41,666 bases of DNA. Source: an uncultured Bacteroidales bacterium (GTDB lineage Bacteria > Bacteroidota > Bacteroidia > Bacteroidales > Bacteroidaceae). Within the stretch, counting starts at the first letter, position 1; each line of letters opens with the position of its first letter. This document shows, piece by piece, positions 1,142 to 32,988 of this stretch. The notes below the pieces were generated by a model. The model searched no databases and was not told where the DNA came from. It was given only the letters and a program-made list of their open reading frames with translations. The translations under genes and the position numbers were made by a program. The stretch is from positions 1 through 41,666 of the forward strand of contig CADAGO010000021.1 of the NCBI GenBank assembly GCA_902787555.1, in the 5' to 3' direction.

Positions 1142-1169
1142 GTTTACTGTTTACAGTTTACCGTTTATT
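1142..1169. repeat. Heptanucleotide tandem array, 4 units (GTTTACN)
   Basis: Four contiguous 7-bp units: GTTTACT, GTTTACA, GTTTACC, GTTTATT. The array lies between the LRR gene and the rhuM promoter. It is one of several period-7 arrays in this window whose unit sequences differ. Confidence 0.8.
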
Positions 1170-1198
1170 GTGTATAGAAGAGTTTTTTTGATGAATAG

Positions 1199-1230
1199 TT
1201 TGGTGGATTCATGAAAATGTTGTAATTTTG
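1199..1230 (+). promoter_or_regulatory. Bacteroidetes-type promoter for the RhuM-family gene
   Basis: TTTG at 1199-1202 and TAATTTTG at 1223-1230 (consensus TAnnTTTG), separated by 20 bp, close to the usual -33/-7 spacing. The rhuM ATG is 26 bp beyond the -7 box. Confidence 0.7.
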
Positions 1231-1256
1231 CAGAGGAAATCATATCCTAAAGATAT

Positions 1257-2252
1257 ATGACGAAAGAAACGGATCATAATATTAGCGAAATAGTCATCTA
1301 CCAATCGGACGATGGGAAAGTGCAATTAGATGTACGCCTGGAGGACAAGACAGTGTGGCTGACCATAGATCAGATGGCAGAATTGTTTGGTAAGGCCCGC
1401 TCTACTGTCAACGAACATATTCTTAATGCATTTGCTGAAGGAGAGATAGAAGAGGCTAAGACAATGAGAAAAATCGGAAATCCCGATTTTTCTGCCAAGC
1501 CCACCAATTATTACAACCTTGATGTTATCATTAGTGTGGGCTATCGTGTGAAGTCGAAGCAAGGTACACGTTTTCGTCAGTGGGCTACAGAACGTCTCGC
1601 CGAATATATCGTGAAGGGCTTTACGATGGACGATGAAAGATTGAAGAATCTGGGTGGAGGCAACTACTGGAAAGAGTTGTTAGATAGAATCCGAGACATC
1701 CGTTCGTCGGAAAAGGTGATGTACCGTCAGGTACTCGATCTCTATGCCACTAGTGTGGACTACGACCCAAGAACGGATGCATCAAAACTATTCTTCAAGA
1801 TGGTTCAGAACAAGTTGCATTATGCAGCACATGGACATACTGCTGCTGAGGTGATTTATGACAGAGCGAATGCAGACCAACCTTTCATGGGACTGACATC
1901 ATTCAAAGGAGAATTGCCAGGAATCAATGACATCAAGATTGCTAAAAACTACCTGACAGCCGATGAATTGAAAATCCTGAATAATCTCGTTTCTGGATAC
2001 TTCGATTTTGCCGAAATGCAGGCACTGCGTCATCGTCCGATGTACATGGAGGACTACGTGCGACAATTAGATAGTATTCTTTCTGCAAACGGTGAAGAAC
2101 TGCTAATCGGTGCAGGCTCGGTTACGCATGAGAAGGCAATTGAGAAAGCTCTTACTGAGTATCGTAAGTATCAGGTAAAGACGCTCTCGCCAGTAGAACA
2201 AGCCTATATTGAATCTATCAAGATGATAGAGAATAAAGCTAAAGCAAAGTAG
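1257..2252 (+). CDS. rhuM: RhuM-family protein (virulence RhuM family)
   Basis: A 331-residue protein at the full length of the RhuM family. An N-terminal helix-turn-helix-like segment (VWLTIDQMAELFGKARSTVN, about 33-52) is followed by the family signature YYNLDVIISVGYRVKS (85-100) and GTRFRQWATERL (103-114). The C-terminal half has KLHYAAHGHTAAEVIYDRA, typical of this family. RhuM was named from a Salmonella pathogenicity island; homologs are scattered on islands and near restriction systems, and the biochemical role is unknown. The start is the ATG at 1257, 26 bp after a good TAnnTTTG box, so the gene is probably transcribed on its own. It sits between two copies of a surface-protein C-terminal tail (946-1078 and 2446-2528), in a region with broken genes, which fits an acquired accessory gene. 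The gene itself looks intact. Confidence 0.85.
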   Translation: MTKETDHNISEIVIYQSDDGKVQLDVRLEDKTVWLTIDQMAELFGKARSTVNEHILNAFAEGEIEEAKTMRKIGNPDFSAKPTNYYNLDVIISVGYRVKSKQGTRFRQWATERLAEYIVKGFTMDDERLKNLGGGNYWKELLDRIRDIRSSEKVMYRQVLDLYATSVDYDPRTDASKLFFKMVQNKLHYAAHGHTAAEVIYDRANADQPFMGLTSFKGELPGINDIKIAKNYLTADELKILNNLVSGYFDFAEMQALRHRPMYMEDYVRQLDSILSANGEELLIGAGSVTHEKAIEKALTEYRKYQVKTLSPVEQAYIESIKMIENKAKAK

Positions 2253-2294
2253 AAAACAGCTCTGCAAGTATCCACATCGGATTGTCGTAATGAT

Positions 2295-2528
2295 ATGAAC
2301 AAAAGCAATGTTTATGTTGGATCTTTACGTGCTTTTATTCAAGTTAGAATATGGAACCATGGAGAAAAGATGCCATTCGTGATTCATACCAATTCTTCAT
2401 CAATATCGACAGCGTTAGCTCCATTGTCAGAGAACCAAAGGAATAACTTCAACCTACAGGGTCAGCGCATCAATGGGTTGCTGAAAGGACTGAATATCGT
2501 GGATGGGAAGAAAGTTGTCGTCAAATGA
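2295..2528 (+). pseudogene. Remnant of a secreted protein: C-terminal tail only
   Basis: The last ~26 residues (FNLQGQRINGLLKGLNIVDG, then KKVVVK) match the C-terminal tail of the LRR protein at 1-1078. The preceding ~50 residues show no recognisable LRR, signal peptide or domain. The simplest reading is the 3' stub of a second secreted/LRR-type gene whose body was lost. It also shows what the tail looks like without the 20-residue insertion present in the upstream gene. It could be a small expressed protein, but it has no signal sequence or clear promoter. Confidence 0.6.
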
Positions 2529-2530
2529 CA

Positions 2531-2594
2531 ATGTAAAAATTATAAAATGTAAAAATGTAAAAATGAAAGAATGTAAAAATGTAAAAATGAAAGG
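2531..2594. repeat. 8-bp tandem array (ATGTAAAA), 8 units
   Basis: Eight contiguous 8-bp units beginning three bases after the remnant's stop codon: ATGTAAAA, ATTATAAA, ATGTAAAA x2, ATGAAAGA, ATGTAAAA x2, ATGAAAGG. A shorter related stretch recurs at about 2618-2640. Confidence 0.8.
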
Positions 2595-2655
2595 TTAATG
2601 GTTATAGGTCAAGGACAATGTAAAAATTATAAAATGAAAGTTTTTCGGAGGAGGA

Positions 2656-2710
2656 AGATAATAAGGAGATAATAAGGAGATAATAAGGAGATAATAAGGA
2701 GATAATAAGG
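2656..2710. repeat. 11-bp tandem array (AGATAATAAGG), 5 exact units
   Basis: Five identical 11-bp units followed by a partial AGATAAGGG. Eleven bases is near one DNA helical turn. The array lies in gene-free DNA between the secreted-protein remnant and the broken ATPase gene. A second, unrelated 11-bp array is at 13335-13411. Confidence 0.9.
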
Positions 2711-2982
2711 AGATAAGGGAAAGATAACGGGGGGGATTTGCTTAAATTACGCACGAAACGATGATTTTATGCCCCCATTTCGAGAAAAAGTAGTATCTTA
2801 AATACAGTCTTATTGATTTCTCCAGTTATGTACATCTCGGTAAAATATAACATTCAACTGAACATAAAATGACATACCGAAGTTGAATTTCGTTAATAAA
2901 TCAGCGGAATTTAAGTATTTCATTAACTTTCCGCTTGTTTTCTCCCGAAAAAGTATTATCTTTTTGGCGTGAATAAAAATTA
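2711..2982. other. Gene-free stretch upstream of the ATPase pseudogene
   Basis: No coding signal was found. Two similar blocks occur about 165 bp apart: GAGAAAAAGTAGTATCTT near 2782 and CCGAAAAAGTATTATCTT near 2946. The second lies just ahead of the ATPase pseudogene start and ends in a TATCTTTTTG string, an imperfect TAnnTTTG box. The first may be a decayed duplicate of the same promoter. Confidence 0.4.
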
Positions 2983-3398: not shown

Positions 3399-3441
3399 AA
3401 AACGATTGATTTGCTATATTCGAGAGGTTCGCATCTCTTGT

Positions 3442-3675: not shown

Positions 3676-3706
3676 ATTCTAATTATTTAGACCACTTCTG
3701 TCTTTC

Positions 3707-3736
3707 AGACATCTCCCCCCTCTATGGGGAGGGTCT
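3707..3736. repeat. CT/GA-rich inverted-repeat element
   Basis: AGAC, then CTCCCC (3713-3718), then GGGGAG (3726-3731), then GTCT. The core CCCCTCTATGGGGAGG is identical to the copy at 13785-13800. It lies between the nitroreductase and the small downstream gene and touches the nitroreductase stop. Confidence 0.7.
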
Positions 3737-4234: not shown

Positions 4235-4286
4235 AAGCTATTATTAAGACCCCACTACCACGAGCGTTAACGTCCTTTGGTAACAA

Positions 4287-4320: not shown

Positions 4321-4323
4321 GTC

Positions 4324-5770: not shown

Positions 5771-6781
5771 TTATTTGTTGAGTGCGAGAGCAACGTTTAC
5801 TGCGCATGCAACGGTCGCTCCGACCATTGGGTTGTTACCCATACCCAGGAAGCCCATCATCTCAACGTGTGCAGGAACGGATGAAGAACCGGCGAACTGA
5901 GCATCTGAGTGCATACGTCCGAGGGTGTCAGTCATACCGTAGGATGCAGGACCCGCTGCCATGTTGTCGGGGTGAAGCGTACGGCCTGTACCACCGCCTG
6001 ATGCAACAGAGAAATATGGTTTGCCAGCGAGCACGCGCTCCTTCTTGTATGTACCTGCAACTGGGTGCTGGAAACGAGTTGGGTTGGTTGAGTTACCTGT
6101 GATGCTGACATCAACGTCTTCCATCCACATGATAGCAACACCTTCGCGAACATCGTCAGCGCCATAGCAGTTCACCTTAGCACGAGGACCGTCGCTGTAA
6201 GGAATGCGCTTTACAACGTCAACCTTACCAGTGTAGTAATCGAACTTAGTCTGTACGTAAGTGAATCCGTTGATACGGCTGATAATCATTGCAGCATCCT
6301 TACCGAGACCGTTGAGGATGACACGCAATGGGTTCTTGCGTACTTTGTTGGCCATCTCAGCAATCTTGATAGCGCCTTCAGCAGCTGCAAAACTCTCGTG
6401 ACCTGCAAGGAATGCGAAGCACTGAGTCTCTTCGCGCAGCAGACGTGCAGCAAGGTTACCATGTCCGAGACCTACTTTACGGTCATCAGCAACTGAGCCT
6501 GGAATGCAGAAAGCCTGCAGACCGATACCGATTGCCTCGGCTGCATCAGCAGCGTTCTTGCAACCTTTCTTGATAGCGATTGCGCAACCACAAACGTATG
6601 CCCACTTTGCATTCTCGAAGCAAATCATCTGTGTTTCTTCACATGTCTTATAGGGATCGAGACCTGCCTTCTCGCAGATTTCGTTTGCTTCTTCAATCGA
6701 AGCAATGCCGTTCTCGTTCAAAGCAGCGAGAATCTGCTTCATACGACGGTCTTGTGATTCAAATTTCACTTCTCTTATCAT
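5771..6781 (-). CDS. GGGtGRT protein (uncharacterised family)
   Basis: 336 residues. The name-giving motif GGGTGRT is at 262-268, followed by a conserved-looking tail (HPDNMAAGPASYGMTDTLGR, GNNPMVGATVACAVNVAL). Ten cysteines (36, 47, 54, 64, 66, 74, 92, 121, 205, 326) include a CGC at 64-66, suggestive of metal or Fe-S chemistry. There is no signal peptide or clear membrane span. The family is known mainly as a conserved domain of strict anaerobes with no established function. It lies 104 bp downstream of a NifU-like gene on the same strand, so the two probably act together; delivery of an Fe-S cluster to this protein is an inference. Confidence 0.8.
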   Translation of the reverse strand: MIREVKFESQDRRMKQILAALNENGIASIEEANEICEKAGLDPYKTCEETQMICFENAKWAYVCGCAIAIKKGCKNAADAAEAIGIGLQAFCIPGSVADDRKVGLGHGNLAARLLREETQCFAFLAGHESFAAAEGAIKIAEMANKVRKNPLRVILNGLGKDAAMIISRINGFTYVQTKFDYYTGKVDVVKRIPYSDGPRAKVNCYGADDVREGVAIMWMEDVDVSITGNSTNPTRFQHPVAGTYKKERVLAGKPYFSVASGGGTGRTLHPDNMAAGPASYGMTDTLGRMHSDAQFAGSSSVPAHVEMMGFLGMGNNPMVGATVACAVNVALALNK

Positions 6782-6885
6782 AGTCTTATTTACTATTTGA
6801 CGATTTAACTATTTACAATTTCTATTATTTAGTCATTCATTATTTTATGATTGGGCAATAGAAAATTGTCCAATTGTAAATGAGA

Positions 6886-7587
6886 CTATTCTTTACGTGG
6901 GTCGATAGATTTAACTGCGCCTTGTTCTGGTTTTGTGCGGCCATAGGTACCAGTTACACTCTTGAGAGCTTCGTCAGCAGGAACGCCTTTCTTTACGGCA
7001 TCCATGAACTTACCCATGTGAACAAATTCGTATCCGCATACTTGATTGTCGCTGTCGAGATACATCTTCGTGATGTAGCCTTCAGTCAGCTGCAAGTAAC
7101 GAGTACCCTTTGCCTTCGTTCCGTAGAGGGTACCACACTGTGATACGAGACCCTTTCCAAGGTCCTCCAAACCTGCACCAATCACGAGACCACCTTCTGA
7201 GAACGCACTCTGAGTACGTCCGTAAACAATCTGAAGGAAGAGTTCGCGCATTGCAGTGTTGATAGCATCGCAAACGAGGTCGGTATTGAGTGCTTCAAGA
7301 ATCGTCTTACCAGGAAGAATCTCTGATGCCATAGCAGCAGAGTGAGTCATACCTGAACAACCGATGGTCTCAACGAGACATTCCTCGATGATTCCATCCT
7401 TAACATTAAGACTCAGTTTGCAGCAGCCCTGCTGAGGGGCACACCAACCAATACCGTGTGTCATACCAGAGATATCCTTAATCTCCTTTGCCTGAATCCA
7501 TTTTCCTTCCTCAGGAATTGGAGCAGGTCCGTGATTAGGACCTTTGGCTACACAGCACATTTCTTGTACTTCTTTTGAATAAACCAT
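6886..7587 (-). CDS. NifU/IscU-like iron-sulfur scaffold-type protein partnered with GGGtGRT
   Basis: 233 residues. The central segment TIGCSGMTHSAAMASEILPG (75-94) with KTILEAL resembles the GC.xAxxSS.....GKT/S..EA region of IscU/NifU scaffolds, with C77 in the place of their second cysteine. GIGWCAPQQGCCKLSL (45-60) resembles the region of the first cysteine. Further cysteines at 11, 12, 70, 106, 151 and 184 exceed the normal three, so this is not a standard IscU. The C-terminal ~80 residues (GTRYLQLTEGYITKMYLD...) are extra. Start is ATG 7587, about 57 bp after a TATCTTTG box. The consistent neighbour is the GGGtGRT gene. Cluster assembly is a family-level inference. Confidence 0.75.
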   Translation of the reverse strand: MVYSKEVQEMCCVAKGPNHGPAPIPEEGKWIQAKEIKDISGMTHGIGWCAPQQGCCKLSLNVKDGIIEECLVETIGCSGMTHSAAMASEILPGKTILEALNTDLVCDAINTAMRELFLQIVYGRTQSAFSEGGLVIGAGLEDLGKGLVSQCGTLYGTKAKGTRYLQLTEGYITKMYLDSDNQVCGYEFVHMGKFMDAVKKGVPADEALKSVTGTYGRTKPEQGAVKSIDPRKE

Positions 7588-7644
7588 AATAAAACTAAAT
7601 TTGTTATATAACTAATAGCTGTTAATATATATCGAAATCTTTTG

Positions 7645-7652
7645 CAAAGATA
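7645..7652 (-). promoter_or_regulatory. -7 box (TATCTTTG) for the NifU-like/GGGtGRT operon
   Basis: CAAAGATA on the plus strand, TATCTTTG read toward the NifU-like gene. No TTTG -33 box is at the right distance; that position is occupied by the 7-bp array at 7660-7687. Confidence 0.65.
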
Positions 7653-7659
7653 CAAATAA

Positions 7660-7687
7660 ATTTATAATTTATAATGTATAATTTATA
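7660..7687. repeat. Heptanucleotide tandem array, 4 units (ATTTATA)
   Basis: ATTTATA, ATTTATA, ATGTATA, ATTTATA without interruption. It lies directly upstream of the minus-strand TATCTTTG at 7645-7652, between this operon and the 3' end of the MacB-like permease gene. Confidence 0.8.
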
Positions 7688-7707
7688 ATATTTTTAATTT
7701 TTCTTGC

Positions 7708-8922
7708 TTATTCATGTCGTATAGCATCGATTGGGTCCATGTTTGCTGCTTTGCGGGCAGGGATATAGCCGAATAGCACACCGATAACTACACACACACC
7801 GAACGACAGAAAGATAGACCACGCAGGTACGATGCTGGGCATTCCCATTTTCGGCAGCAGACTTGATGCTCCGACCCCCAACAGTACACCGAAGATACCT
7901 CCTGTCAGACTGATGAGAATAGACTCAATCAAGAACTGAACGCTGATGACGAAGCCTGTAGCACCCACTGCCATACGCAGACCAATCTCTTTCGTACGCT
8001 CTGTCACACTCACAAGCATGATGTTCATGATACCGATACCGGCAATCAACAGCGAGAATCCTGCTGCGATACCCAGAATCATCGTCACAGTATCCATTGT
8101 GTTCGACATCGTCTCCATCATCTCGGCTTGAGAACGGATGTTGAAGTCGTCAACCGCACCATCTTTTATTTTATGTGAGCGACGCAGTATCTGGGTCAGC
8201 TCTTCGATGGCATGATCAGACATCTCTTCCGTGATGGCTGAGCAGACGATAGACCCATAGTAGGTCTGGGCAGAGATACGTTTCATCACACAGGTATAAG
8301 GTGCGACAATCACGTTGTCTTGGTCCATTCCCCAACTGTTGTATCCTTTCGACTTCAGTACGCCTATCACCTTCATTGGGATGGACTTGAAGCGGATGTT
8401 CTTGCCGATAGGGTCAGCACCGTTGAACAATTCGTCGACGATGGTTTTACCCACTACGCACACTTTGGCCGACTTACGGATATCTTCCTCTGTGAAGAAA
8501 TCTCCGTCTTGAATGTCCCATTGCCTGATTTTCAGGTAGTCGGTCGATTCGCCGTAAATCGTGGAAGTCGTGTTGTTGTTTCCATAAATCACCTGTCCGC
8601 TTGATGACACTTCAGGCGATACATAGGTCACATATTTCTTCTCGTTCATGATGGCTTCGAGGTCTGCAGGCTTCAGGGTCTGCATTTGAGACGGGTCACG
8701 ACGCACACCACCACGCATATCAGCACCCGGGCGAATGGTCAGCAGGTTCGTGCCCTGCTTGGCCAACTCCTCACGGATACTTTCTTTCGAGCCTTGACCG
8801 ATACTCATCATCGTGATGACTGCTCCCACACCGATGATGATACCCAGCATACTGAGAAACGAACGCAGTTTGTTGCTCGCCACAGCTCGCAGTGATACCT
8901 TAAATAAGTTCTGTATATTCAT
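7708..8922 (-). CDS. MacB-type ABC transporter permease
   Basis: 404 residues with the MacB/FtsX layout. An N-terminal segment LRSFLSMLGIIIGVGAVITM spans the membrane near residues 18-40. A ~230-residue periplasmic domain follows, then three C-terminal spans near 278-305 (ILGIAAGFSLLIAGIGIMNI), 328-358 and 368-390. The motif VTERTKEIGLRMAVGAT follows the second span as in the family. MacB proteins are mechanotransmission ABC exporters that work with a periplasmic adaptor and an outer-membrane channel. In E. coli MacB the ATPase is fused; here it is the separate upstream gene, as is usual in Bacteroidetes. It is the last gene of a four-gene efflux operon, 87 bp after the ATPase gene. Substrate unknown. 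Confidence 0.9.
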   Translation of the reverse strand: MNIQNLFKVSLRAVASNKLRSFLSMLGIIIGVGAVITMMSIGQGSKESIREELAKQGTNLLTIRPGADMRGGVRRDPSQMQTLKPADLEAIMNEKKYVTYVSPEVSSSGQVIYGNNNTTSTIYGESTDYLKIRQWDIQDGDFFTEEDIRKSAKVCVVGKTIVDELFNGADPIGKNIRFKSIPMKVIGVLKSKGYNSWGMDQDNVIVAPYTCVMKRISAQTYYGSIVCSAITEEMSDHAIEELTQILRRSHKIKDGAVDDFNIRSQAEMMETMSNTMDTVTMILGIAAGFSLLIAGIGIMNIMLVSVTERTKEIGLRMAVGATGFVISVQFLIESILISLTGGIFGVLLGVGASSLLPKMGMPSIVPAWSIFLSFGVCVVIGVLFGYIPARKAANMDPIDAIRHE

Positions 8923-8969
8923 TATCTATAAACTCTAAACTTTTAATTCTTCGCTCTCCACTCTTTCCT

Positions 8970-9006
8970 GGCTCCCTCCCTTTGAGGGGAGGGCGGGGAG
9001 AGGGGC
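8970..9006. repeat. CT/GA-rich inverted-repeat element inside the efflux operon
   Basis: CCCTCCC (8974-8980), TTTGA, then GGGAGGG (8987-8993), then CGGGGAGAGGGGC. The minus strand reads GCCCCTCTCCCCG followed by CCCTCCCCTCAAAGGGAGGG, parallel to the copy at 4287-4320. It fills most of the 87-bp gap between ATPase and permease genes. A transcript hairpin here could alter the ATPase:permease expression ratio (inference). Confidence 0.7.
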
Positions 9007-9009
9007 ATT

Positions 9010-9765
9010 TTAATCATCCGCTTTTGGTAACGCAGCCAAAGCTTCAGCAGCAGATTTGATGTTATTGTTAATTGTATCCTCACGTATCTTACCATCGCGC
9101 AGGTAGATATTCCGTGATGAATACTCTGCAATCTCAGGGTTGTGCGTCACGAAGATGATGGTATGTCCTTGCTTGTATAGCTCTTGGAACAGTACCAGCA
9201 CTTCGAACGAAGTACGGGTGTCGAGGTTACCTGTTGCTTCGTCTGCCAATAATACGGCAGGATCATTCACCAATGCTCTTGCAATAGCAACACGCTGCAT
9301 CTGACCACCCGACATCTGGTTTGACTTGTGATACAGACGGTCACCCAGTCCTACTGCTTCTAATGCCTTGATGGCAGCTTCTTTACGTTGCTTCGAATTA
9401 TACTTGCTGTTGTACATCAACGGCAGTTCTACATTCTCTACTGCAGTCGTGTTTGCCAGCAGGTTGTAGTTCTGAAAGATGAACCCGATTTTCTTATTGC
9501 GCAGATGAGCACGCTGGCTTTTCGACATCTTTCTCACAGGTACACCATCCAGATAATACTCTCCCGACGTAGGGGTGTCGAGGCAGCCTAACTGGTTCAG
9601 AAGGGTAGACTTACCCGAACCTGATGTGCCTTGTATGGTGACAAACTCGCCTTCGTGAATCTTGAACGATACGCCACGAAGGGCTTTCACCACTTCCGAT
9701 CCCACGTGAAAGTAGCGCTTCACGTTTTCGAGTTCGATAACGACCTTGCTATTCTCTTCTTTCAT
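9010..9765 (-). CDS. MacB/LolD-type ABC transporter ATP-binding protein
   Basis: 251 residues from ATG 9765; a longer in-frame start lies inside the Gly-rich 3' end of the adaptor gene and encodes a low-complexity EQEQEQ stretch, so it was rejected. Walker A GTSGSGKS is at 46-53, Q-loop FIFQNYN near 96-101, signature MSGGQMQRVAIARAL at 151-165, Walker B VLLADEATGNLD at 171-182, and the switch His sits in FVTHNPEIA. Closest in type to LolD/MacB lipoprotein and macrolide exporter ATPases. It is 22 bp after the adaptor gene and 87 bp before the permease gene, so the three are one operon. Confidence 0.92.
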   Translation of the reverse strand: MKEENSKVVIELENVKRYFHVGSEVVKALRGVSFKIHEGEFVTIQGTSGSGKSTLLNQLGCLDTPTSGEYYLDGVPVRKMSKSQRAHLRNKKIGFIFQNYNLLANTTAVENVELPLMYNSKYNSKQRKEAAIKALEAVGLGDRLYHKSNQMSGGQMQRVAIARALVNDPAVLLADEATGNLDTRTSFEVLVLFQELYKQGHTIIFVTHNPEIAEYSSRNIYLRDGKIREDTINNNIKSAAEALAALPKADD

Positions 9766-9787
9766 GGTCACTCTGTTTTTGTGTGAT

Positions 9788-11065
9788 TTATCGGCCTCCA
9801 CCCATTGGACGACCACCTCCTGCAGCTCCGGTACCTGGACGGCCTGCTCCTGCTCCTGCTCCTGCACCAGCAGCACCAGCACCTGGACGGCCTTGTCCTG
9901 CAGCACCGGCACCTTGACGGTTGTTGTTTCTGTTACGTCCTGGCATGAATGGGTTGGTTGGAGCCTCTTCTATTTCTTCCTCAGGCATTACAAACTCGGT
10001 GATGATTTCCGTTCCTTCCTTGATGCCTGAAAGTACTTCTGTGTAAGTTCCGTTTGTGCGTCCTACCTGAATAGGAATGGCTTTGAACACCTTTCCTTCT
10101 TGTACCCATACCTTTGTTGGGCCTTCACAGTCCTCAATCTTCTCGTCGTCTTGCAATAACAGTTCGTTTGGTGCAAATCGCAATGCCTTAGCAGGTACCG
10201 ACATAATATCGTGCATCTCCATCGTATAGATGGTCACGTTGGCAGTCAGACCTGGTTTCAGCTTCAGTGATTCGTTGGGGGCAGAGATGACAACCTCGTA
10301 AGTAACCACATTGCTCTCAGTGGTAGCTTGCTGACGTACTTGTGTGACTGCGCCTTCGAATGTGTCGTCAGGATAGGTATCTACGGTGAACATCACACGC
10401 TGACCTTCCTTTACTCCACCTATGTCGGCTTCGTCAATCTTTGCAATCACTCGCATGTTTGTCAGGTCCTGAGCGATGATGAACAGGGTAGGGGTGGTCA
10501 TCGCCGACGCAACGGTCTGACCCTCTTCCACCTCACGGCTCAGCACGATACCGTCGATAGGTGAGGTAATGGTGGCATAGCCCAGGTTCGTTTGTGCTTT
10601 CTGTACACTCATTCGCTGTACTGCCACTTGCTGCAGTGCCTGCTCATAGCTCAGACGAGCACTCTCGTAGTCGTTTGTACTCACCAGTCCTTTCTCGTAT
10701 AGTGTCTTGTAACGATTGTAGTTTGAAGTCTGATAGTTCAGGTTACTCTCATAGTTCGACAGGTTGCTTTTTGCTGAAGCCAGTTCGCTCAGCAGGTTTG
10801 TCTTGTCCAGTTCGGCAATCACATCGCCCTTGTGCACCTCACTGTTGTAGTCCACATAGATTCTGTCGATGATACCCGATACTTGTGTACCTACTTCCAC
10901 CTGCGTTACTGGTTCAATAGTTCCTGTAGCGGTGATACTGGTTGAAAGGTCGTGTTTTGCCACTACGTCTGTATTGTATGTCACCTTGGCTTCCTTGGAA
11001 CAACTTGCAAAGGTGAAACCTACGATAGCAACAAGTGCTGCTAATTTGATCATTGATTTGTTCAT
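9788..11065 (-). CDS. MacA-type periplasmic adaptor (HlyD/RND membrane-fusion) lipoprotein with Gly/Ala-rich tail
   Basis: 425 residues from ATG 11065, which begins a lipoprotein signal (MNKSMIKLAALVAIVGFTFASC, lipid-modified C22). The lipoyl/barrel segment GTIEPVTQVEVGTQVSGIID, a helical hairpin (~75-150) and the second lipoyl half (QTNLGYATITSPIDGIVL) follow, then the beta-barrel and membrane-proximal domains to ~375. It bridges the MacB-type pump to the TolC-like channel. The last ~50 residues are low complexity: NRNNNRQGAGAAGQGRPGAG..., ending RPMGGGR. They are coded by hexamer-like GCAGGA repeats that could slip. The outer-membrane protein at 37108-40317 ends in a similar Gly/Pro/Met/Arg tail. 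Confidence 0.9.
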   Translation of the reverse strand: MNKSMIKLAALVAIVGFTFASCSKEAKVTYNTDVVAKHDLSTSITATGTIEPVTQVEVGTQVSGIIDRIYVDYNSEVHKGDVIAELDKTNLLSELASAKSNLSNYESNLNYQTSNYNRYKTLYEKGLVSTNDYESARLSYEQALQQVAVQRMSVQKAQTNLGYATITSPIDGIVLSREVEEGQTVASAMTTPTLFIIAQDLTNMRVIAKIDEADIGGVKEGQRVMFTVDTYPDDTFEGAVTQVRQQATTESNVVTYEVVISAPNESLKLKPGLTANVTIYTMEMHDIMSVPAKALRFAPNELLLQDDEKIEDCEGPTKVWVQEGKVFKAIPIQVGRTNGTYTEVLSGIKEGTEIITEFVMPEEEIEEAPTNPFMPGRNRNNNRQGAGAAGQGRPGAGAAGAGAGAGAGRPGTGAAGGGRPMGGGR

Positions 11066-11122
11066 ATTGTTATTCTTTATACTTTCACTAAACTCTTCTT
11101 TCTTCACTCTTTGCAAAACTCC

Positions 11123-12538: not shown

Positions 12539-13002
12539 GAAAGCAGCCAGCCTATAAGCCGGGTTCTGTCATCACGCACGCGTGATGGTCTGTCATTTAT
12601 CCCAGTTGAGTGTCACCACACAACTTTAGCGTTCTACCCTGTAGCTCGGGCGAGCAACCCTCAAGCGCTACTATACATGAACTTGCAGCTTCCAAGATGC
12701 ACAGCCGGTATGTCGCCACACCGCTGGTAGGCTCTTACCCCACCTTCTCACCCTTACCCTCTTAATTCGTGAAGCGTTTAGCGGTTAGCGTTTAGCGTTT
12801 AGCGATCGTACTTTCTCTTCACTCTCCACTCTTCACTCTCCACTTTAAGAAGGCGGTTGTTTTCTTCTGCATTACTCAACCCTCGCGGACTGCTTCTATA
12901 TTAGGAAGTGGAATGCTCTGTGCTGCCCGGACTTTCCTCCCACGTTACCGATGTATGCATGCATACCAGCGTAAGTCAGCGACAGACCGTCCGACTGCTT
13001 TC
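12539..13002 (-). ncRNA. rnpB: RNase P RNA (class A) with repeat-filled P12
   Basis: The minus strand contains the conserved blocks in order: GGAGGAAAGTCCGGGC near the 5' end, an ACAACCGCC block, GGGTAAGGGTGAGAAGGTG with GGTAAGAGCCTACC, and the 3' block ACAGAACCCGGCTTATAGGC. The ends pair as P1 (GAAAGCAG with CTGCTTTC), which sets the limits, and TTTTT follows the 3' end. About 464 nt is long because the region equivalent to the variable P12 helix holds ~100 nt of tandem repeats. The base of that helix still pairs (CCTTCTTAA with TTAAGAGGG). The RNA is the catalytic subunit that trims tRNA 5' ends; a tRNA-Lys gene lies 555 bp upstream on the same strand. Confidence 0.95.
12774..12842. repeat. 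Two heptanucleotide arrays inside rnpB P12
   Basis: Array one is four 7-bp units at 12774-12801: GCGTTTA, GCGGTTA, GCGTTTA, GCGTTTA. Array two is four at 12815-12842: CTCTTCA, CTCTCCA, CTCTTCA, CTCTCCA. They are separated by 13 bp. In the RNA they form the two sides of the extended P12 region. Confidence 0.85.
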
Positions 13003-13040: not shown

Positions 13041-13524
13041 GAAAACACCTTCTTTTTATGTTTTTTTAGCGAAAAGAAACCGTGATAAAACAAAAAAGAG
13101 GGTAATCCCCCCTAATCATATTCTATGATTATTTCAGTTTCGCAAATTCAACAGAGGAAGTTATCGCGATCTTTGACCGCTTAGAAGTTATCATTTTGTT
13201 CGGACTTATCGCTTCGCTCGAAGTTATATGTTTCGCATAATTAACTCGCTTTCGTTCGTGGAAATAAAGTTTTTCCTGATAAAAAACGTACCTTTGTGTC
13301 GTAAAAAAAACAGCAGGCAGCTTGCTCCCGAGTGCCGAGCACCTACCGAGCACCTACCGAGCACTTACCGAGCACTTACCGAGCACTTACCGAGCACTTA
13401 CCGAGCACTTACCGAGGTCTAACAAATCCTCCATAAGGCTTCGGTACAATCTCGTGAAATTGGCAGGAAGGCTGTCTTGAAAACCGCGTGTTCCTGTCTT
13501 ACCCTTTATTACGATTTGCTGCCA
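13041..13524. other. Gene-free stretch with an orphan promoter box, 11-bp array and a tRNA-like fragment
   Basis: No convincing gene. Small possible ORFs lack family features. A plus-strand TACCTTTG at 13289-13296 has no good -33 box and points into the 11-bp array at 13335-13411. At 13464-13496 a plus-strand stem (CAGGAA/TTCCTG) encloses a segment resembling a tRNA anticodon arm. A minus-strand stretch at 13130-13250 has an open frame (…KITSKRSKIAITSSVEFAKLK-like end) but is too short and unsupported to call. Confidence 0.4.
13335..13411. repeat. 11-bp tandem array (CCGAGCACYTA), 7 units
   Basis: Seven contiguous 11-bp units: CCGAGCACCTA twice, then CCGAGCACTTA five times, with decayed half-units at both ends (CCGAGTG before, CCGAGGTCTA after). 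It is GC-richer than its AT-rich surroundings. It begins 38 bp downstream of a TACCTTTG box. Confidence 0.9.
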
Positions 13525-13525
13525 A

Positions 13526-13551
13526 ACAAAAAAGGCGGAATAATCCGCCTT
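13526..13551 (-). terminator. Rho-independent terminator of tRNA-Lys
   Basis: On the minus strand an AAGGCGGA/TCCGCCTT stem (plus 13532-13539 and 13544-13551) with a 4-base loop is followed by a T-rich tract (TTTTTTGTTTG sense). It starts 6 bp after the tRNA 3' end. Confidence 0.85.
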
Positions 13552-13755: not shown

Positions 13756-13769
13756 CAAAAAATTACGCA

Positions 13770-13803
13770 GACCCCCTCTATCTCCCCCTCTATGGGGAGG
13801 AGG
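13770..13803. repeat. CT/GA-rich inverted-repeat element in the M48 leader
   Basis: CAGACCCCCTCTAT, then CTCCCC (13782-13787) and GGGGAG (13794-13799). This is the clearest plus-strand copy of the dispersed element, and its hairpin would lie within the leader of the M48 transcript. Confidence 0.7.
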
Positions 13804-13874
13804 AAAATGTAAAAATGTGGTTTCCGTTATCGTTTTCGTAGAGGGTCTTTCGACAGGCTCAAGATGTCTCTAAT

Positions 13875-13972
13875 GTCTAAAGTCTAAAGTCTAATGTCTA
13901 AGGTCTAAAGTCTAAAGTCTAAAGTCTAAAGTCTAAAGTCTAAGGTCTAAAGTCTAAGGTCTAAAGTCTAAA
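13875..13972. repeat. Heptanucleotide tandem array, 14 units (GTCTAAN)
   Basis: GTCTAA recurs at exactly 7-bp steps from 13875 to 13966, 14 times without a break. The seventh base is A, T or G (mostly A). Only AAAAA separates it from the ATG of the M48 gene, so it fills the translation-initiation region of that mRNA. Confidence 0.95.
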
Positions 13973-13977: not shown

Positions 13978-15201
13978 ATGTACTGGTTAGTAATTATCAT
14001 TCAAATAGGTGAGTATCTGTTCGATTTGTTGTTGGATCTGCTGAATATCAAAGCATCGCATCGTCCGATTCCCCGTGTGTTGGAAGGAATGTATGATGAT
14101 GAGGCATACGCGCGTCAGCAGGCTTATTTCCGTATTAATAAAAAGGTGGGGTTCGTTACAGGTTTTGTGACGACTGCGTTATCGGTAGGTCTATTCGCTT
14201 TCGGTGCGTACGGATGGTTTGACGGGGTGGTGCGCGAGGCAACCGATTCCGACATTTGGCGCACGTTGCTTTTCTTCGGTTTCTTCGGAGCAATCAGCTG
14301 GCTGGTATCGCTACCTTTCGACATATACGATACGTTTGTGGTGGAGCAACGGTTTGGTTTCAATAGAGTAACTCCTCGTCTTTTTGTGCTTGACACATTG
14401 AAGAGCCTGGCGCTGAACATTGTGTTGAGTGGTGGTCTGCTGGCCTTGGCGGTATGGATTTACCAACTTACACCTCAATATTTCTGGCTTCTGGCTTGGG
14501 GTGTACTGACGCTGATCATGTTGTTTTTTCAGTATTTCTATTCGGTGTTGTTGGTGCCTTTGTTCAACAAGCAGACGCCGCTACCTGCAGGGGAACTGCG
14601 TGATGCTATCGAGGCATTTGCTGCGAAGGTTGACTTCAGGCTAAAGAACATATACGTGATTGACGGTTCGAAGCGGAGCACGCATTCAAATGCTTATTTC
14701 ACGGGATGGGGGCGCCAGAAGCGGGTGGTACTCTACGACACACTGATGGAACAACTGACAACTGAGGAGATTGTGGGTGTATTGGCACACGAGATAGGAC
14801 ACTACAAGCATCGTCATATCATTCAGTCGCTTTTGATAGGTATCGTGACCTCACTGGTGACGCTCTATCTGTTTGGTTTGGTCATCGATAGTACTGCTAT
14901 AGCTATGGCTGCAGGGAGTACAGAACCTTCGTTTTATGTGAATCTGACGGTATTTTCACTGATTTATTCCCCGCTGACGATGTTGCTGGGTATTGTAGGT
15001 AATGTGCGGTCACGCCACAACGAGCGCCAGGCTGACGCGTTTGCACGTCGGCACGGGGTAGGAACCTTTGAGGCTGATGCATTGAAAAAAATGTCGGCGA
15101 AGAGTCTGTCGAACCTCACCCCACATCCTTTTGTGGTGTTTGTGTGTTATTCTCATCCAACGTTGGAAAGTAGGGTGACTATGCTGGGGGAAAGTTCGTA
15201 A
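13978..15201 (+). CDS. M48-family membrane zinc metallopeptidase (Ste24/CAAX protease type)
   Basis: 407 residues. The zinc motif HEIGH is at 271-275 (VLAHEIGHYKHRH), and the third ligand is probably E349 in RHNERQADAFARRHG. About seven membrane spans are visible (near 1-22, 58-80, 96-118, 141-163, 166-196, 281-302, 320-342), with the catalytic site between spans, as in eukaryotic Ste24/ZMPSTE24. SNAYFTGWG...VVLYDTL just before the active site is a strong family marker. Bacterial members are membrane proteases of unclear substrate; there is no evidence here for prenylated CAAX proteins. ATG 13978 is chosen because MYWLVIIIQIGEYLF starts the first span. Its leader contains the 14-unit heptad array and no recognisable ribosome-binding site. 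Confidence 0.9.
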   Translation: MYWLVIIIQIGEYLFDLLLDLLNIKASHRPIPRVLEGMYDDEAYARQQAYFRINKKVGFVTGFVTTALSVGLFAFGAYGWFDGVVREATDSDIWRTLLFFGFFGAISWLVSLPFDIYDTFVVEQRFGFNRVTPRLFVLDTLKSLALNIVLSGGLLALAVWIYQLTPQYFWLLAWGVLTLIMLFFQYFYSVLLVPLFNKQTPLPAGELRDAIEAFAAKVDFRLKNIYVIDGSKRSTHSNAYFTGWGRQKRVVLYDTLMEQLTTEEIVGVLAHEIGHYKHRHIIQSLLIGIVTSLVTLYLFGLVIDSTAIAMAAGSTEPSFYVNLTVFSLIYSPLTMLLGIVGNVRSRHNERQADAFARRHGVGTFEADALKKMSAKSLSNLTPHPFVVFVCYSHPTLESRVTMLGESS

Positions 15202-15224: not shown

Positions 15225-15812
15225 TCACAATGACTTTTTGATGCGTGAGAGTGCCATCATATAGGAAGTGTTGTTGTTTTTGAGCACCATTTCATCATTG
15301 GTCAACTCATGGATTTGGGTTTCTTTCTGACTGAGTTGTGACTTAATGAGTGGCTGAATAACCGCTGTGTCGGAATACTCCTTCATGATGTTGACATAGT
15401 AGTCGGCATCAAAGTTGGGCATGGGACGCATAGCGTATCCTTTGACGAACTCATAGGTGCACGATTCTCCTGTCAAGATGAGATTATCATCTTTTACTTT
15501 CCACGTACCCTGATAGTCCGTTTTGTATTCTAGTATGATAGTGTTGGTGAAACCATATTCCCCAAGCGTCAGTTCATAGTATATTTCAAATTCGCCCGAT
15601 TCGTGCTCGGTGTGGTCTTCATTGAATACATCGATACTTTCGAGTAACCAGGTCATGTAGGTTGGTGGGAGCTGTTGGGTTGAGTCGGATTTGATGTTGT
15701 CGGAGTAACTGGACGAATATGCCCATTTGCCTATGATTTTGTTTTCTATGGCCGACGGTCCGCACGAAACGACAAGCAGTGTGGCAATGAATATGAATGC
15801 AAACTGTTTCAT
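15225..15812 (-). CDS. Lipocalin-like lipoprotein of unknown function
   Basis: 195 residues with a lipoprotein signal (MKQFAFIFIATLLVVSC, lipid-modified C17). IIGKWAYSSSY near the start and YQGTWKVKDDNLILTGESCT in the middle are the paired G.W segments of small lipocalin-like/DUF-type beta-barrel lipoproteins of Bacteroidetes. No catalytic motif is seen. It converges on the M48 gene with only 23 bp between the stop codons and has its own -7 box at 15844-15851. Outer-membrane or periplasmic location is inferred. Confidence 0.75.
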   Translation of the reverse strand: MKQFAFIFIATLLVVSCGPSAIENKIIGKWAYSSSYSDNIKSDSTQQLPPTYMTWLLESIDVFNEDHTEHESGEFEIYYELTLGEYGFTNTIILEYKTDYQGTWKVKDDNLILTGESCTYEFVKGYAMRPMPNFDADYYVNIMKEYSDTAVIQPLIKSQLSQKETQIHELTNDEMVLKNNNTSYMMALSRIKKSL

Positions 15813-15843: not shown

Positions 15844-15851
15844 CAAAGATA
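15844..15851 (-). promoter_or_regulatory. -7 box (TATCTTTG) for the lipocalin-like lipoprotein
   Basis: Plus-strand CAAAGATA, 31 bp upstream of the gene's start. The -33 position is occupied by the 7-bp array at 15861-15888 rather than by TTTG. Confidence 0.65.
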
Positions 15852-15860
15852 GTGTTTTTA

Positions 15861-15888
15861 ATTCATAATTCATAATTCCTCATGCATA
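15861..15888. repeat. Heptanucleotide array, 2 exact plus 2 degenerate units (ATTCATA)
   Basis: ATTCATA, ATTCATA, ATTCCTC, ATGCATA. The reverse complement unit (TATGAAT) is the same heptad, by circular permutation, as the ATGAATT pair at 32961-32974. Both sit just upstream of a TATCTTTG box. Confidence 0.6.
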
Positions 15889-15946
15889 ATTTGATGTTTT
15901 GGACTGTTTTTTTACGAAAAAAACTATTCGTTTTTCAAGGTTTTTG

Positions 15947-15968: not shown

Positions 15969-16757
15969 ATGAAACGTTTGTTTGGCATATTATTGATACT
16001 ATGTAGCATGTGTAGCATGTTGCTTGTTTCATGTCGGTTCGGCTCGAATGAGTCGGACGAGGATGTCGCAAACGATTCTTTGTCGGTTGATACACTCGGA
16101 TTGGAAGAGTTGGATTTGTTTGAGGAGGAGGTAGTTCCGAAGGCTGCCGATGAAGTGTTTGATGACTTTTTGTTTACATACGTTTCAAATGCATCGTTCC
16201 GGAAACAACGCACTAAGGGTTCGGAGTCGCTTGATATGGACGATGATGATGCTGTTGTGATGATTTACGAGCGTGAGAACGATTTGGAACTACAGAAAGA
16301 CACAACTTTGCAGCAAGTGATATTAGAGAAGATCAACTGGGACATCAATACGCTCCGTCATTATCAGTTCAGCAAGAATCAAGGTCAATGGTTCCTCTCA
16401 TCGGAGCAAGATGCTGATATCTCTGATGTGCCCAATGCCAGTTTCCTGGTGTTCCTAAAGGATTTTCTCACCGACTCGCTCTATCGTCACGAATCGATTG
16501 ACCTTCCTCTGCTGATGAAGTACTATTCGGAGGAGGACGACGGAATGGTGGAGGCAGAGTTGTCGTTCGAGGAGTGGAACGAGATTTTTAACGACCTACC
16601 CAGATTGGACGATTATATGTATAACGTAGACTATGGTCAATCGCTTATCAGTAGTAATCGCAAGTCGCTCCTGTTGAAGGGAATGAGCAATGGGTTGTTC
16701 ATGAAGTTTCATTTCGGCTTCTCCGAAGGAAGATGGAGGCTGATAGAAGTAGAGTAG
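15969..16757 (+). CDS. DUF4348-like lipoprotein
   Basis: 262 residues from ATG 15969, giving a lipoprotein signal (MKRLFGILLILCSMCSMLLV, then SC, lipid-modified C22). A longer in-frame start at 15882 runs through the promoter and was rejected. The mature protein is acidic, with runs such as SNESDEDVANDSLSVD and DMDDDDAVVMIYERENDLE. The domain from about residue 55 (ADEVFDDFLFTYVSNASFRK) to the end (FGFSEGRWRLIEVE) matches the DUF4348 pattern as I recall it; function is unknown. It lies 128 bp ahead of murB on the same strand with heptad arrays between, so read-through into murB is possible. Confidence 0.72.
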   Translation: MKRLFGILLILCSMCSMLLVSCRFGSNESDEDVANDSLSVDTLGLEELDLFEEEVVPKAADEVFDDFLFTYVSNASFRKQRTKGSESLDMDDDDAVVMIYERENDLELQKDTTLQQVILEKINWDINTLRHYQFSKNQGQWFLSSEQDADISDVPNASFLVFLKDFLTDSLYRHESIDLPLLMKYYSEEDDGMVEAELSFEEWNEIFNDLPRLDDYMYNVDYGQSLISSNRKSLLLKGMSNGLFMKFHFGFSEGRWRLIEVE

Positions 16758-16762
16758 GATAT

Positions 16763-16797
16763 AAAGTTGATAGTGTAAAGTTGAAAGTGTAAAGTCA
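16763..16797. repeat. Heptanucleotide tandem array, 5 units (AAAGTNN)
   Basis: AAAGTTG, ATAGTGT, AAAGTTG, AAAGTGT, AAAGTCA, contiguous, starting 5 bp after the DUF4348-like gene stop. Confidence 0.8.
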
Positions 16798-16833: not shown

Positions 16834-16881
16834 AAACTTTAAAATCTGCCTTTAAACTATAAACTATAAACATTAAACTTT
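16834..16881. repeat. Heptanucleotide array (AAACTAT) abutting the murB start
   Basis: AAACTTT and AAAATCT at 16834-16847, a 6-bp interruption, then four contiguous units AAACTAT, AAACTAT, AAACATT, AAACTTT at 16854-16881. The murB ATG follows at 16886. Confidence 0.75.
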
Positions 16882-16885
16882 AATA

Positions 16886-23263: not shown

Positions 23264-23285
23264 TTTATTCTTTATTTAAGATTGA

Positions 23286-30121: not shown

Positions 30122-32918
30122 ATGGATTGAGGTGTATGGCGCTAAGGTGCATAACCTGAAAAATGTCGATGTAAGAATCCCTCGCAACAGCCTTACCGTT
30201 ATCACAGGATTGAGTGGTAGTGGTAAATCGAGTCTGGCATTCGACACTATCTTTGCTGAGGGTCAGCGACGTTATATCGAGACGTTCTCGGCATATGTAC
30301 GTAACTTCCTTGGCGGCATGCAGCGGCCAGAGGTCGATAAGATTACGGGGTTGAGTCCGGTAATCAGCATTGAACAGAAAACTACTAGCAAGAATCCACG
30401 CAGTACGGTGGGCACAGTGACAGAGGTGTACGACTACCTCCGTCTTTTGTTTGCACGCGCTGCTGATGCCTACAGCCATGTAACTGGTGAGAAGATGGTG
30501 AAATATACGGATGAGCAGATTCTAGACCTCATCCTTTCGCACTATGCAGGCTGTCGCATCTATATCCTTGCCCCTGTAGTCAGGAGTCGTAAGGGACATT
30601 ATCGTGAGTTGTTTGAGAGCCTGATGAAGAAGGGGTATCTGCATGTGCGCATTGATGGTGAAGTGGTGGAGATGAGGTCAGGAATGCATGTGGATCGCTA
30701 CAAGAACCATAATATAGAAGTAGTGGTTGACCGTTTGGCGGTTAACGAAAAGGATGCAGACAGGCTCGCTAAAAGTGTAGCTACTGCCATGAATTTAGGC
30801 GAAGGATTAATCATGATTCTCGAGAAAGATTCAGGCGAGTTGAAACATTATTCGCGCCGTCTGATGTGTCCTACGACAGGTATCAGTTACCATGACCCTG
30901 CTCCCAATAACTTCTCATTTAATTCACCCCAGGGTGCGTGCCCTTGCTGTAAAGGATTGGGATATATCAGTCTGATTGACCGCGATAAAATCATCCCCGA
31001 CAAGACCCTCTCTGTTTATGATGGCGCTTTGGCTCCGTTGGGCAAGTATAAGAATACCATGATTTTTATGCAGATTCAGGGTGTACTAGACCACTATGAG
31101 CAAAGCATTCATACACCAGTGGAGCAACTGCCGGAAGAAGTTGTTCACGATCTGATTTTCGGCTGCAACGAACGTATCCGTATCCCAGCAGCAATGATTC
31201 ATCAGACCAACGATCTGTATACTTCGTACGAAGGACTGGCGCGCTACATCAACCAATTGCGTGATAGTGAAATGTCGGCTCAGGCACAACGTTGGGCTGA
31301 TTCGTTCGATAGTATCACAACCTGTCCTGAGTGTGGTGGCTCTCGCCTTAATCAAGAGGCGATGAGCTTTCGGTTTGCAGGAAAGAACATCTACGAGTTG
31401 TCTTGTATGGATCTCAAGGACTTGTACGAGTGGCTTGGAGGAGTGAATGAACAGCTTTCGAATAAACAACAGAAAATAGCCGCTGAGATATTAAAGGAGA
31501 TTCGCAACCGCTTGCAATTCCTGCTTGATGTGGGTCTTGACTATCTGTCGCTTAATCGTAGCACCATGAGTCTGTCGGGTGGTGAGAGTCAGCGTATCCG
31601 TCTGGCTACGCAGATAGGTGCCAAACTCGTGAATGTGTTGTATATCCTCGACGAACCTAGTATAGGTCTGCATCAGCGAGACAACCAGCGACTGATCAAT
31701 TCGCTCAAAATGCTGCGCGATGAAGGAAATACTGTCATCGTAGTGGAGCACGACAAAGACATGATGCTTGCTGCCGACTACATCATCGATATGGGACCGC
31801 TTGCAGGACGCAAGGGTGGGGAAGTGATGTTCCAGGGTACGCCCGAGGAACTAATGAAGACAGATACATTGACAGCAAAGTATCTAAGAGATGAGGGTGA
31901 ATATGCTGCGCGAGTCCATTGTGCAGATCAAGACGCTTCTGCTTTTATAAGGTTGAATGGCTGTCACGGCAACAACCTGAAGAATGTGTCTGTGTCCTTC
32001 CCACTACGTAAGTTGATTTGTATTACCGGTGTCAGCGGAAGTGGAAAGTCAACCCTCATCAATGATACCCTGCAGCCCATTCTCAGTCAGCATCTTTATC
32101 GTTCGCTTAGGGAACCGTTGGCCTACGATTCCGTAGAAGGATTGGAATATATCAATAAGGTGGTGACGGTCGACCAATCGCCTATCGGACGTACACCCCG
32201 TAGCAATCCGGCGACTTATACAGGTGTGTTCAGCGATATCCGTGACCTGTTTGTAAAACTTCCAGAGGCTGTGTTGAGAGGCTACAAACCCGGGCGATTC
32301 TCTTTTAATGTGTCGGGTGGTCGTTGTGAGGCCTGTGGAGGAAATGGGTACAAAACTATCGCAATGAATTTCCTGCCCGATGTATTGTCTCCTTGTGAGG
32401 TGTGTCATGGGAAACGTTATAATCGTGAGACCTGTGAGGTGAAGTTTAAAGGAAAGTCGATAGCAGATGTACTCGATATGACCATCAATCATGCCGTAGA
32501 GTTTTTTGAGAATCAACCACACATCCTCAATAAGATCAAGGTGATACAGGATGTGGGATTGGGGTATATCAAACTGGGTCAGCCTTCGACTACCTTATCA
32601 GGCGGAGAGAGCCAGCGTGTGAAGCTGGCTACCGAACTGAGTAGAAAAGATACAGGCAACACGCTCTATATTCTCGACGAACCAACCACAGGATTGCATT
32701 CCGAAGACATCAAGGCGCTGATGGCTGTTCTCTATCGGTTGGTAGAGAAGGGTAATACCGTCATCGTTATTGAACATAACCTGGAAGTTATCAACCAGGC
32801 AGACTACATCATCGATATGGGTCCGGAAGGTGGTAAAGATGGTGGACGAATCGTCGCACAAGGAACGCTTGATGATGTACGCGCGTCCCGACAAGGATAT
32901 ACTTGGCAGTTTTTGTAG
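30111..32918 (+). CDS. uvrA: Excinuclease ABC subunit UvrA
   Basis: 935 residues, normal length. First ATPase: Walker A GLSGSGKSSLAFDTI (33-47) and signature LSGGESQRIRLATQIG (~488). Second: GVSGSGKSTLINDTL (~640) and LSGGESQRVKLATELS (~830) with ILDEPTTGLH. Zinc modules CPTTGIS...CPCCKGLG and CPECGGSRL lie in the first half, and CEACGGNGY...CEVCHGKRYN (~740-768) in the second. UvrA dimers find bulky DNA lesions and load UvrB. The start is the ATGATG at 30111, inside the preceding gene. A 7-bp hairpin follows the stop. Confidence 0.97.
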   Translation: MMNEWIEVYGAKVHNLKNVDVRIPRNSLTVITGLSGSGKSSLAFDTIFAEGQRRYIETFSAYVRNFLGGMQRPEVDKITGLSPVISIEQKTTSKNPRSTVGTVTEVYDYLRLLFARAADAYSHVTGEKMVKYTDEQILDLILSHYAGCRIYILAPVVRSRKGHYRELFESLMKKGYLHVRIDGEVVEMRSGMHVDRYKNHNIEVVVDRLAVNEKDADRLAKSVATAMNLGEGLIMILEKDSGELKHYSRRLMCPTTGISYHDPAPNNFSFNSPQGACPCCKGLGYISLIDRDKIIPDKTLSVYDGALAPLGKYKNTMIFMQIQGVLDHYEQSIHTPVEQLPEEVVHDLIFGCNERIRIPAAMIHQTNDLYTSYEGLARYINQLRDSEMSAQAQRWADSFDSITTCPECGGSRLNQEAMSFRFAGKNIYELSCMDLKDLYEWLGGVNEQLSNKQQKIAAEILKEIRNRLQFLLDVGLDYLSLNRSTMSLSGGESQRIRLATQIGAKLVNVLYILDEPSIGLHQRDNQRLINSLKMLRDEGNTVIVVEHDKDMMLAADYIIDMGPLAGRKGGEVMFQGTPEELMKTDTLTAKYLRDEGEYAARVHCADQDASAFIRLNGCHGNNLKNVSVSFPLRKLICITGVSGSGKSTLINDTLQPILSQHLYRSLREPLAYDSVEGLEYINKVVTVDQSPIGRTPRSNPATYTGVFSDIRDLFVKLPEAVLRGYKPGRFSFNVSGGRCEACGGNGYKTIAMNFLPDVLSPCEVCHGKRYNRETCEVKFKGKSIADVLDMTINHAVEFFENQPHILNKIKVIQDVGLGYIKLGQPSTTLSGGESQRVKLATELSRKDTGNTLYILDEPTTGLHSEDIKALMAVLYRLVEKGNTVIVIEHNLEVINQADYIIDMGPEGGKDGGRIVAQGTLDDVRASRQGYTWQFL

Positions 32919-32943
32919 TTTTTTTGCCTTCATATTGCAAATA

Positions 32944-32962
32944 ATCATGCTTTTTGCATGAT
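32944..32962 (+). terminator. Hairpin after uvrA
   Basis: ATCATGC-TTTTT-GCATGAT, a perfect 7-bp stem with a 5-base loop, 26 bp past the uvrA stop. No T-run follows, so it is a weak candidate terminator; it is followed directly by a heptad pair and the ispE -7 box. Confidence 0.4.
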
Positions 32963-32988
32963 GAATTATGAATTATTTCTTATCTTTG
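32961..32988 (+). promoter_or_regulatory. ispE -7 box (TATCTTTG) preceded by a heptad pair
   Basis: TATCTTTG at 32981-32988. ATGAATT, ATGAATT occupy 32961-32974, where a -33 TTTG would be expected. Confidence 0.65.

Follow-up and report, generated by a model that had tools for sequence, protein, structure and literature searches.

Heptanucleotide tandem arrays of a Bacteroidaceae genome and their placement beside putative -7 promoter boxes

The DNA considered here is a stretch of 41,666 nucleotides from an uncultured member of the Bacteroidaceae (contig CADAGO010000021.1 of assembly GCA_902787555.1), hereafter the window, whose intergenic regions carry tandem arrays of heptanucleotides, that is, short units repeated head to tail with a period of 7 bp. 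In the source genome (G000, the assembly that contains the window, 82% complete) and in other species of its genus, many of these arrays end a few base pairs upstream of matches to the Bacteroidetes -7 promoter box, TAnnTTTG, a docking that the initial annotation of the window had missed.

Arrays and genes of the window

On the minus strand of the window, an AATTTAT array (7659..7689) ends 6 bp upstream of the -7 box match TATCTTTG at 7645..7652, which precedes the gene at 6886-7587, and an ATTCATA-family array (15859..15891) ends 7 bp upstream of a further match, TATCTTTG at 15844..15851, located upstream of the gene at 15225-15812. On the plus strand, a short ATGAATT repeat (32961..32976), which belongs to the ATTCATA family on the promoter sense, adjoins from upstream the match TATCTTTG at 32981..32988, ahead of a GHMP-kinase-like gene (33016-33846). 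A leader array of mixed 7- and 8-mers with sense AGTAAAT words (6788..6826, minus strand) lies 6 bp away from where the GGGtGRT gene (5771-6781) starts; an AAACTAT array (16853..16883, plus strand), also sense-oriented, ends 2 bp before the start codon of murB; and 14.9 copies of GTCTARN (13869..13972, plus strand) separate a predicted promoter from the start codon of an M48 protease gene (13978-15201). A 14-mer array composed of two related heptamers (16762..16795, plus strand) directly follows the stop codon of the gene at 15969-16757. The GTTTACN array delimited by Tandem Repeats Finder (TRF) at 1142..1171 (plus strand) is undocked: a -7 box match lies about 50 bp downstream of it and has an ordinary TTTGG on its own upstream side; a RhuM-family gene (PF13310) occupies 1257-2252. 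Finally, the class A RNase P RNA gene (12539..12998, minus strand, 213.9 bits) holds two minus-strand arrays, reading CGCTAAA (12773..12804) and GTGGAGA or GTGAAGA (12815..12844) in the RNA sense, which share one insertion in the P12 loop.

Each of the nine arrays listed by the initial annotation was tested against 1000 dinucleotide shuffles of its local region. Six were never matched, the array at 7659 was matched once and that at 32961 four times; the array at 16762, for which the best TRF solution is the 14-mer, was matched by 29 shuffles when scored at lag 7 only. Over the whole window, nine exact lag-7 runs of length at least 9 were counted, against a mean of 0.2 in 10 shuffles. Eight of the nine listed arrays are clear, the ninth (32961) having 2.3 copies only. 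The list is correct in what it contains and incomplete, since it lacks arrays of other periods at 2530-2593, 2656-2716, 6788-6826 (the leader array of mixed units) and 13335-13416.

An intergenic period-7 class with shared units

The refuting check proposed with the initial annotation was run: the period spectrum of G000 was obtained by counting exact runs of at least 10 in a sample of 423.6 kb, of which 44.6 kb are intergenic. Period 7 gives the highest intergenic peak, with 32 runs against 0.1 expected, the other counts being 1 for period 5, 0 for 6, 9 for 8, 6 for 9, 0 for 10, 20 for 11, 1 for 12 and 0 for 13; the harmonics 14, 21 and 22 are also high. In the coding DNA of the same sample there are 9 runs of period 7 and 10 of period 9. 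The intergenic excess recurs in samples of three further species of the genus (G010, G013 and G004) and of two genomes outside it (G033 and G026), and no period-7 run was found in intergenic samples of 8-16 kb from three similarly AT-rich relatives of the same family (G021, G036 and G017; intergenic GC 0.30-0.34), hereafter the array-poor relatives. AT-richness, tried as the cause of period 7, is ruled out by these three genomes. In other words, period 7 clearly exceeds its neighbours in a real intergenic class of repeats, as the initial annotation had supposed; its view that the period is fixed at 7 does not hold, as periods 8, 11 and 22 are enriched too and 7- and 8-mers are mixed within arrays.

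The arrays of the first G000 sample, collapsed to 31, comprise 23 units, with a unit GC content of 25%. Eleven pairs of arrays have identical units, against 0.9 expected (highest null value 8 in 2000 draws). The earlier description, of units that vary among sites and do not derive from one element by copying, is thus right as to their diversity and wrong as to their independence. Nor are the units locus-specific: families such as ATTCATA, AGTAAAT and GTCTAAA are spread over many loci and over other species as well. Specifically, a search of 61 genomes for three unit copies with at most 2 mismatches found ATTCATA in 25 genomes and GTCTAAA in 6, the latter with 36 overlapping matches in G000, 19 in G010, 16 in G014, 7 in G007, 98 in G013 and 193 in G033. 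The distribution of both is patchy: G033 belongs to another genus, and several genomes of the source genus have few matches or none. The reversed AGTAAAT pattern is invalid as a control, because with R as G the pattern looks much alike in both directions. The presence of stop codons in every frame was considered as a shared constraint and rejected: a stop occurs, on either strand, in 20 of the 23 units, and shuffled units give a mean of 18.9.

As regards RNase P, 13 genomes of the genus, G000 included, have a recognisable RNA gene; G000 and G010 carry arrays in it, with different units, and none were seen by eye in the other 11, G014 among them, nor in 20 further members of the family. The gene itself gave no match in G001, G002, G005 and G008. 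The P12 inserts still fold as hairpins, stabler than shuffles (z -2.95 and -4.20). Heptamer repeats thus lie inside the RNase P RNA gene of G000, in two arrays, and a study by Vioque of 1997, to go by its title, reportedly deals with short tandemly repeated repetitive (STRR) sequences in the cyanobacterial RNase P RNA gene. The likeness, which is drawn from that title, is that short tandem repeats also lie within this gene here, in the P12 loop, in a host of a different phylum.

An excess of heptameric simple sequence repeats (SSRs) in bacteria was reported in 2007, as cited in PMC4692102, and slippage was proposed as its cause. The present arrays belong to this class, which is characterized by an excess of period 7 over its neighbours and, in the cases detailed in that paper as here, by an intergenic location. 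Both heptamer excess and RNase P heptamers are already known. The arrays described here differ in having several unit families with position niches, docking and register being absent from the relevant passages of PMC4692102. The G-rich GGGNATC heptamers of Xanthomonas and Nostoc treated in the same paper are likewise intergenic and variable between related species; they form G-quadruplexes, whereas the units here are AT-rich. A further parallel is offered by the TAACTGA repeats of Beggiatoaceae, Cyanobacteria and five Bacteroidetes, which show 7-nt indels between strains and, like the present arrays, are dispersed intergenic heptamers, patchy among lineages; they are often sense-oriented just upstream of start codons, as are the AGTAAAT words here but not the pooled arrays (PMC4679880). 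The initial annotation knew of no description for this group; with these two papers in print, such heptamers are not undescribed in general. The TAACTGA system, however, has one fixed unit, and -7 docking is not among the features described for it in that source, whereas many units occur here; TAACTGA did not turn up in the list of period-7 units sampled from G000 and G010, the whole genomes not having been searched for it. Within the open-licence PMC literature, no report of heptamer arrays docked at -7 boxes was found, nor anything on heptamers in work on promoter propagation.

Docking, register and leader arrays

In four genomes of the source genus (G000, G010, G013 and G004), 53 of 190 period-7/8 arrays (about 28%) are followed within 0-9 bp by TAnnTTTG, against 8.6 expected, and 13 altered motifs give only 0-5 docked arrays in the same set. 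By genome, docking amounts to 26 of 89 arrays in G000 (4.0 expected), 15 of 60 in G010 (3.3), 4 of 33 in G013 (0.6) and 5 of 8 in G004 (0.8), where the docked sites carry a unit of their own, CTGCATT. When G000 and G010 are taken together, the 147 period-7/8 arrays give 44 box gaps of 0-9 bp (7.7 expected), and each of the two 5-bp bins that follow holds only 2; arrays of period 11, 22 or 33 are undocked (2 observed, 2.5 expected). Docked arrays are about 4-5 units long, and array lengths are concentrated between 28 and 34 bp (67 of 105), short arrays being trimmed by the score cut-off.

The same periodicity was examined from the side of the promoters, using a set of putative promoters built on the match to the -7 box and calling heptad those with a lag-7 identity of at least 0.55 in the interval -45..-5. 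In the four genomes, 78 of 337 putative promoters are heptad; other lags from 4 to 13 give 0-10 and the harmonic 14 gives 57, and heptad promoters number 1 of 77 in the array-poor relatives and 0 of 42 in G033 with G026. In heptad promoters, A and T pairs repeat every 7 bp, largely in register with the -7 box, with T pairs at -7/-8, -14/-15, -21/-22, -28/-29 and -35/-36 from it. Outside the ATTCATA family the register of 45 promoters reaches 3.41 bits, whereas 2000 nulls average 2.22 bits and do not exceed 2.71.

Promoters of the Bacteroidetes primary sigma factor have a -7 element, TAnnTTTG, and a -33 element, TTTG (PMC7366714). The -7 box is common to the genus studied here, and ordinary promoters show TTG at -23/-22 from it, whereas heptad promoters are mostly without TTG and have a phased array instead: TTG at -24..-19 is present in 11 of 78 heptad promoters versus 90 of 161 low-lag ones (Fisher p 3e-10). 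With respect to the -7/-33 class, heptad promoters have the -7 box by construction and mostly lack the -33 TTTG or TTG.

Between G000 and G010, the nearest relative seen (murB 89% identical), 157 orthologous genes were compared and 28 have a recognisable box in both. Of these promoters, 8 are heptad in both species and 11 in neither; 3 are heptad in a single species and clearly non-heptad in its counterpart, and 6 are intermediate. The 8 include C4:33380, where unrelated units occur, of CTAAACT type in G000 and AATTATG in G010.

A different placement is taken by the AGTAAAT family, of which 16 of 19 arrays lie within 15 bp of a start codon, all 16 sense-oriented (7.1 expected). The count becomes 14 once two miscalled starts, with the ATG inside the array, are removed (C25:21555 and C3:89768, where the arrays sit upstream of a -7 box); this forward orientation beside starts is not a property of the pooled arrays. 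Among 29 fetched AGTAAAT-family loci, chiefly of further species and including 3 from G000 or G010, 16 precede a start by no more than 30 bp and 2 fall inside an open reading frame. Moreover, two leaders at unrelated genes have 39 bp in common apart from a single mismatch, and an identical string of 32 bp occurs in two arrays. In a random control of 30 sets of 13 upstream regions the best pair scores 10-22, against 35 and 32.

Change between species and proposed origin

In phase-variable contingency loci, copy-number change inside one strain switches expression; the comparison made here is between species, with one assembly each. G010 lacks the (GTCTAAA)14 array (13869-13972) and the 11-mer region 13111-13524, and of 43 intergenic regions mapped between G000 and G010, 10 have arrays in one or both. 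At C5:42259 the two differ in length by exactly 15 bp, one 15-mer; in another region place and register are kept, with ATTCATA-type units giving way to the ATTTATA type. Near-identical tracts, too, contain arrays, which are then the same in both species (7659; 16762 and 16853). As to arrays as possible recombination borders, some of the jumps in G000/G010 identity lie near arrays and others away from them. As a separate observation, positions 6847-11089 of the window are 97.6% identical to G010 and the neighbouring parts about 80-88%, which suggests that the two species have recently exchanged DNA here. At G000:C23:65776-65883 (L016/L017), an array that separates divergent promoters has the AATTATG orientation in G000 and the ATTTATA orientation in G010, perhaps by inversion or replacement.

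The best explanation, for and against which we see the chances evenly balanced, combines slippage and copying as the source of the arrays with the retention of in-register heptads as promoter elements of the genus. Heptamer arrays would arise and change length in whole-unit steps by replication slippage or unequal recombination, and short multi-unit strings would be copied from site to site. In the source genus many arrays would then be kept as expression elements, the promoter register acting as a filter for 7-bp steps. A 7-bp step keeps the spacing of the T blocks, and promoters should therefore tolerate 7-bp slippage better than other indels. The in-register heptad would replace the -33 contact of RNA polymerase, and the AGTAAAT words would constitute a second set, of sense-oriented leaders at start codons. 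We tentatively go a step further, to a possibility that we hold below an even chance: about a quarter of the promoters may have a second architecture, in which a heptad array of interchangeable units, read by position, replaces the -33 box, so that a swap of unrelated units keeps function. As to the initial alternative of a shared generating mechanism or a shared constraint, a shared constraint is visible at promoters, and no copying enzyme was found, Y1 transposase being the one candidate tested.

If true, promoter contacts repeating every 7 bp would act, in this genus at least, as a filter through which function favours steps of 7 bp, which bears on the question of why so many bacteria favour heptamers among long tandem repeats. 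There would be an extra promoter class in a phylum in which the -33 element is described as hard to define (PMC7366714), and regulatory DNA conserved in period and position rather than in letters, which alignment-based searches would miss.

Several points weigh against this explanation. The -7 boxes are sequence matches, whose promoter function is predicted. Docked promoters within a family are not independent, because they are possibly copies; with one representative per unit cluster (11-15 promoters) the register is 3.43 versus 2.45 bits, a value reached by 4% of nulls on average and 25% at worst, and is only suggestive. The TTG comparison left out 98 promoters of intermediate lag-7 identity, and TTG is infrequent in the array-poor relatives too (19 of 77). 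Lag-7 identity is raised also at -90..-50 (33 of 275) and upstream of start codons (56 of 697), and less so at +8..+48 (8 of 161). A niche at start or stop codons, tried for all arrays, was dropped, as the pooled arrays show no enrichment. ATTCATA was likewise rejected as a universal promoter element, since none of its 22 distinct loci in five other genera (30 fetched, before duplicates were merged) is docked, and outside the genus 0 of 13 arrays dock in G033 and 0 of 3 in G026. Because heptamers abound undocked in these two genomes, docking cannot explain period 7 generally, and the generic slippage bias proposed in PMC4692102 is still needed.

The strongest rival, which we consider rather unlikely, is neutral slippage only, in which the polymerase favours 7-bp units and harmless arrays persist, docking and leaders being by-products of compact intergenic regions and of the copying of promoter or leader stretches. 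PMC4692102 already presents the over-representation of heptamers and a hypothesis based on the polymerase footprint, stop-codon content is as composition predicts, the pooled arrays are not enriched at starts or stops, and those of the two other genera are undocked. The docking peak, however, is sharp and specific to the true -7 motif, docking recurs with a different unit in G004, and lengths cluster in a narrow range, subject to the trimming noted above.

It is improbable that the arrays are operators, recognised by a DNA- or RNA-binding protein and spreading as its sites, as proposed for TAACTGA. The AGTAAAT-family leaders, sense-oriented and mostly beside start codons, would suit such a regulon, and TAACTGA is similarly placed in other bacteria (PMC4679880). 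Docked arrays, however, use many unrelated units, even at one promoter in two species, and one sequence-specific protein therefore fits them poorly; the downstream genes, moreover, appear unrelated by eye, one of them having been searched.

Least of all is to be expected from a mobile element, such as a REP-like (repetitive extragenic palindromic) Y1 transposase moving arrays with the hairpin sequences inside GTCTARN arrays: such arrays, with a hairpin-like string embedded in them, do occur at many loci, and G010 lacks two of the window arrays or the DNA around them, but Y1_Tnp, the sole candidate tested for the copying enzyme with a 7-nt register that had been envisaged, has no match in G000 (82% of which is covered, so that absence is not proof) or in the array-rich G001, G006, G014, G015, G016 and G022, 33 of 61 genomes having one, the arrays are thus not placed among REP sequences and their associated tyrosine transposases (RAYT), and no target-site duplication is seen at the sites read.

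The window and the rest of G000 hold other repeated strings. The hairpin-like string TTTCGACAGGCTCAAGATG lies in or beside GTCTARN arrays, at 13840-13870 of the window and at L002, L004, L005 and L006; it is found at many loci, once as three copies in tandem, 38 bp apart. The array at 13335-13416 consists of the 11-mer CCGAGCACTTA, and a query with 13111-13530 gave 23 matches in G000, most of them in the array part. A C-rich/G-rich string near CCCCCTCTATGGGGAGG (13768-13801) occurs at about ten other places in G000. A search for plasmid relatives of uvrA gave no match. Finally, tandem 22-mers form a second common class of intergenic repeats, as at L020 (G000:C5:23823-23959), L027 (C15:36733) and L015 (C23:20537); several of them have an internal palindrome, and one 72-bp copy is repeated on C25.

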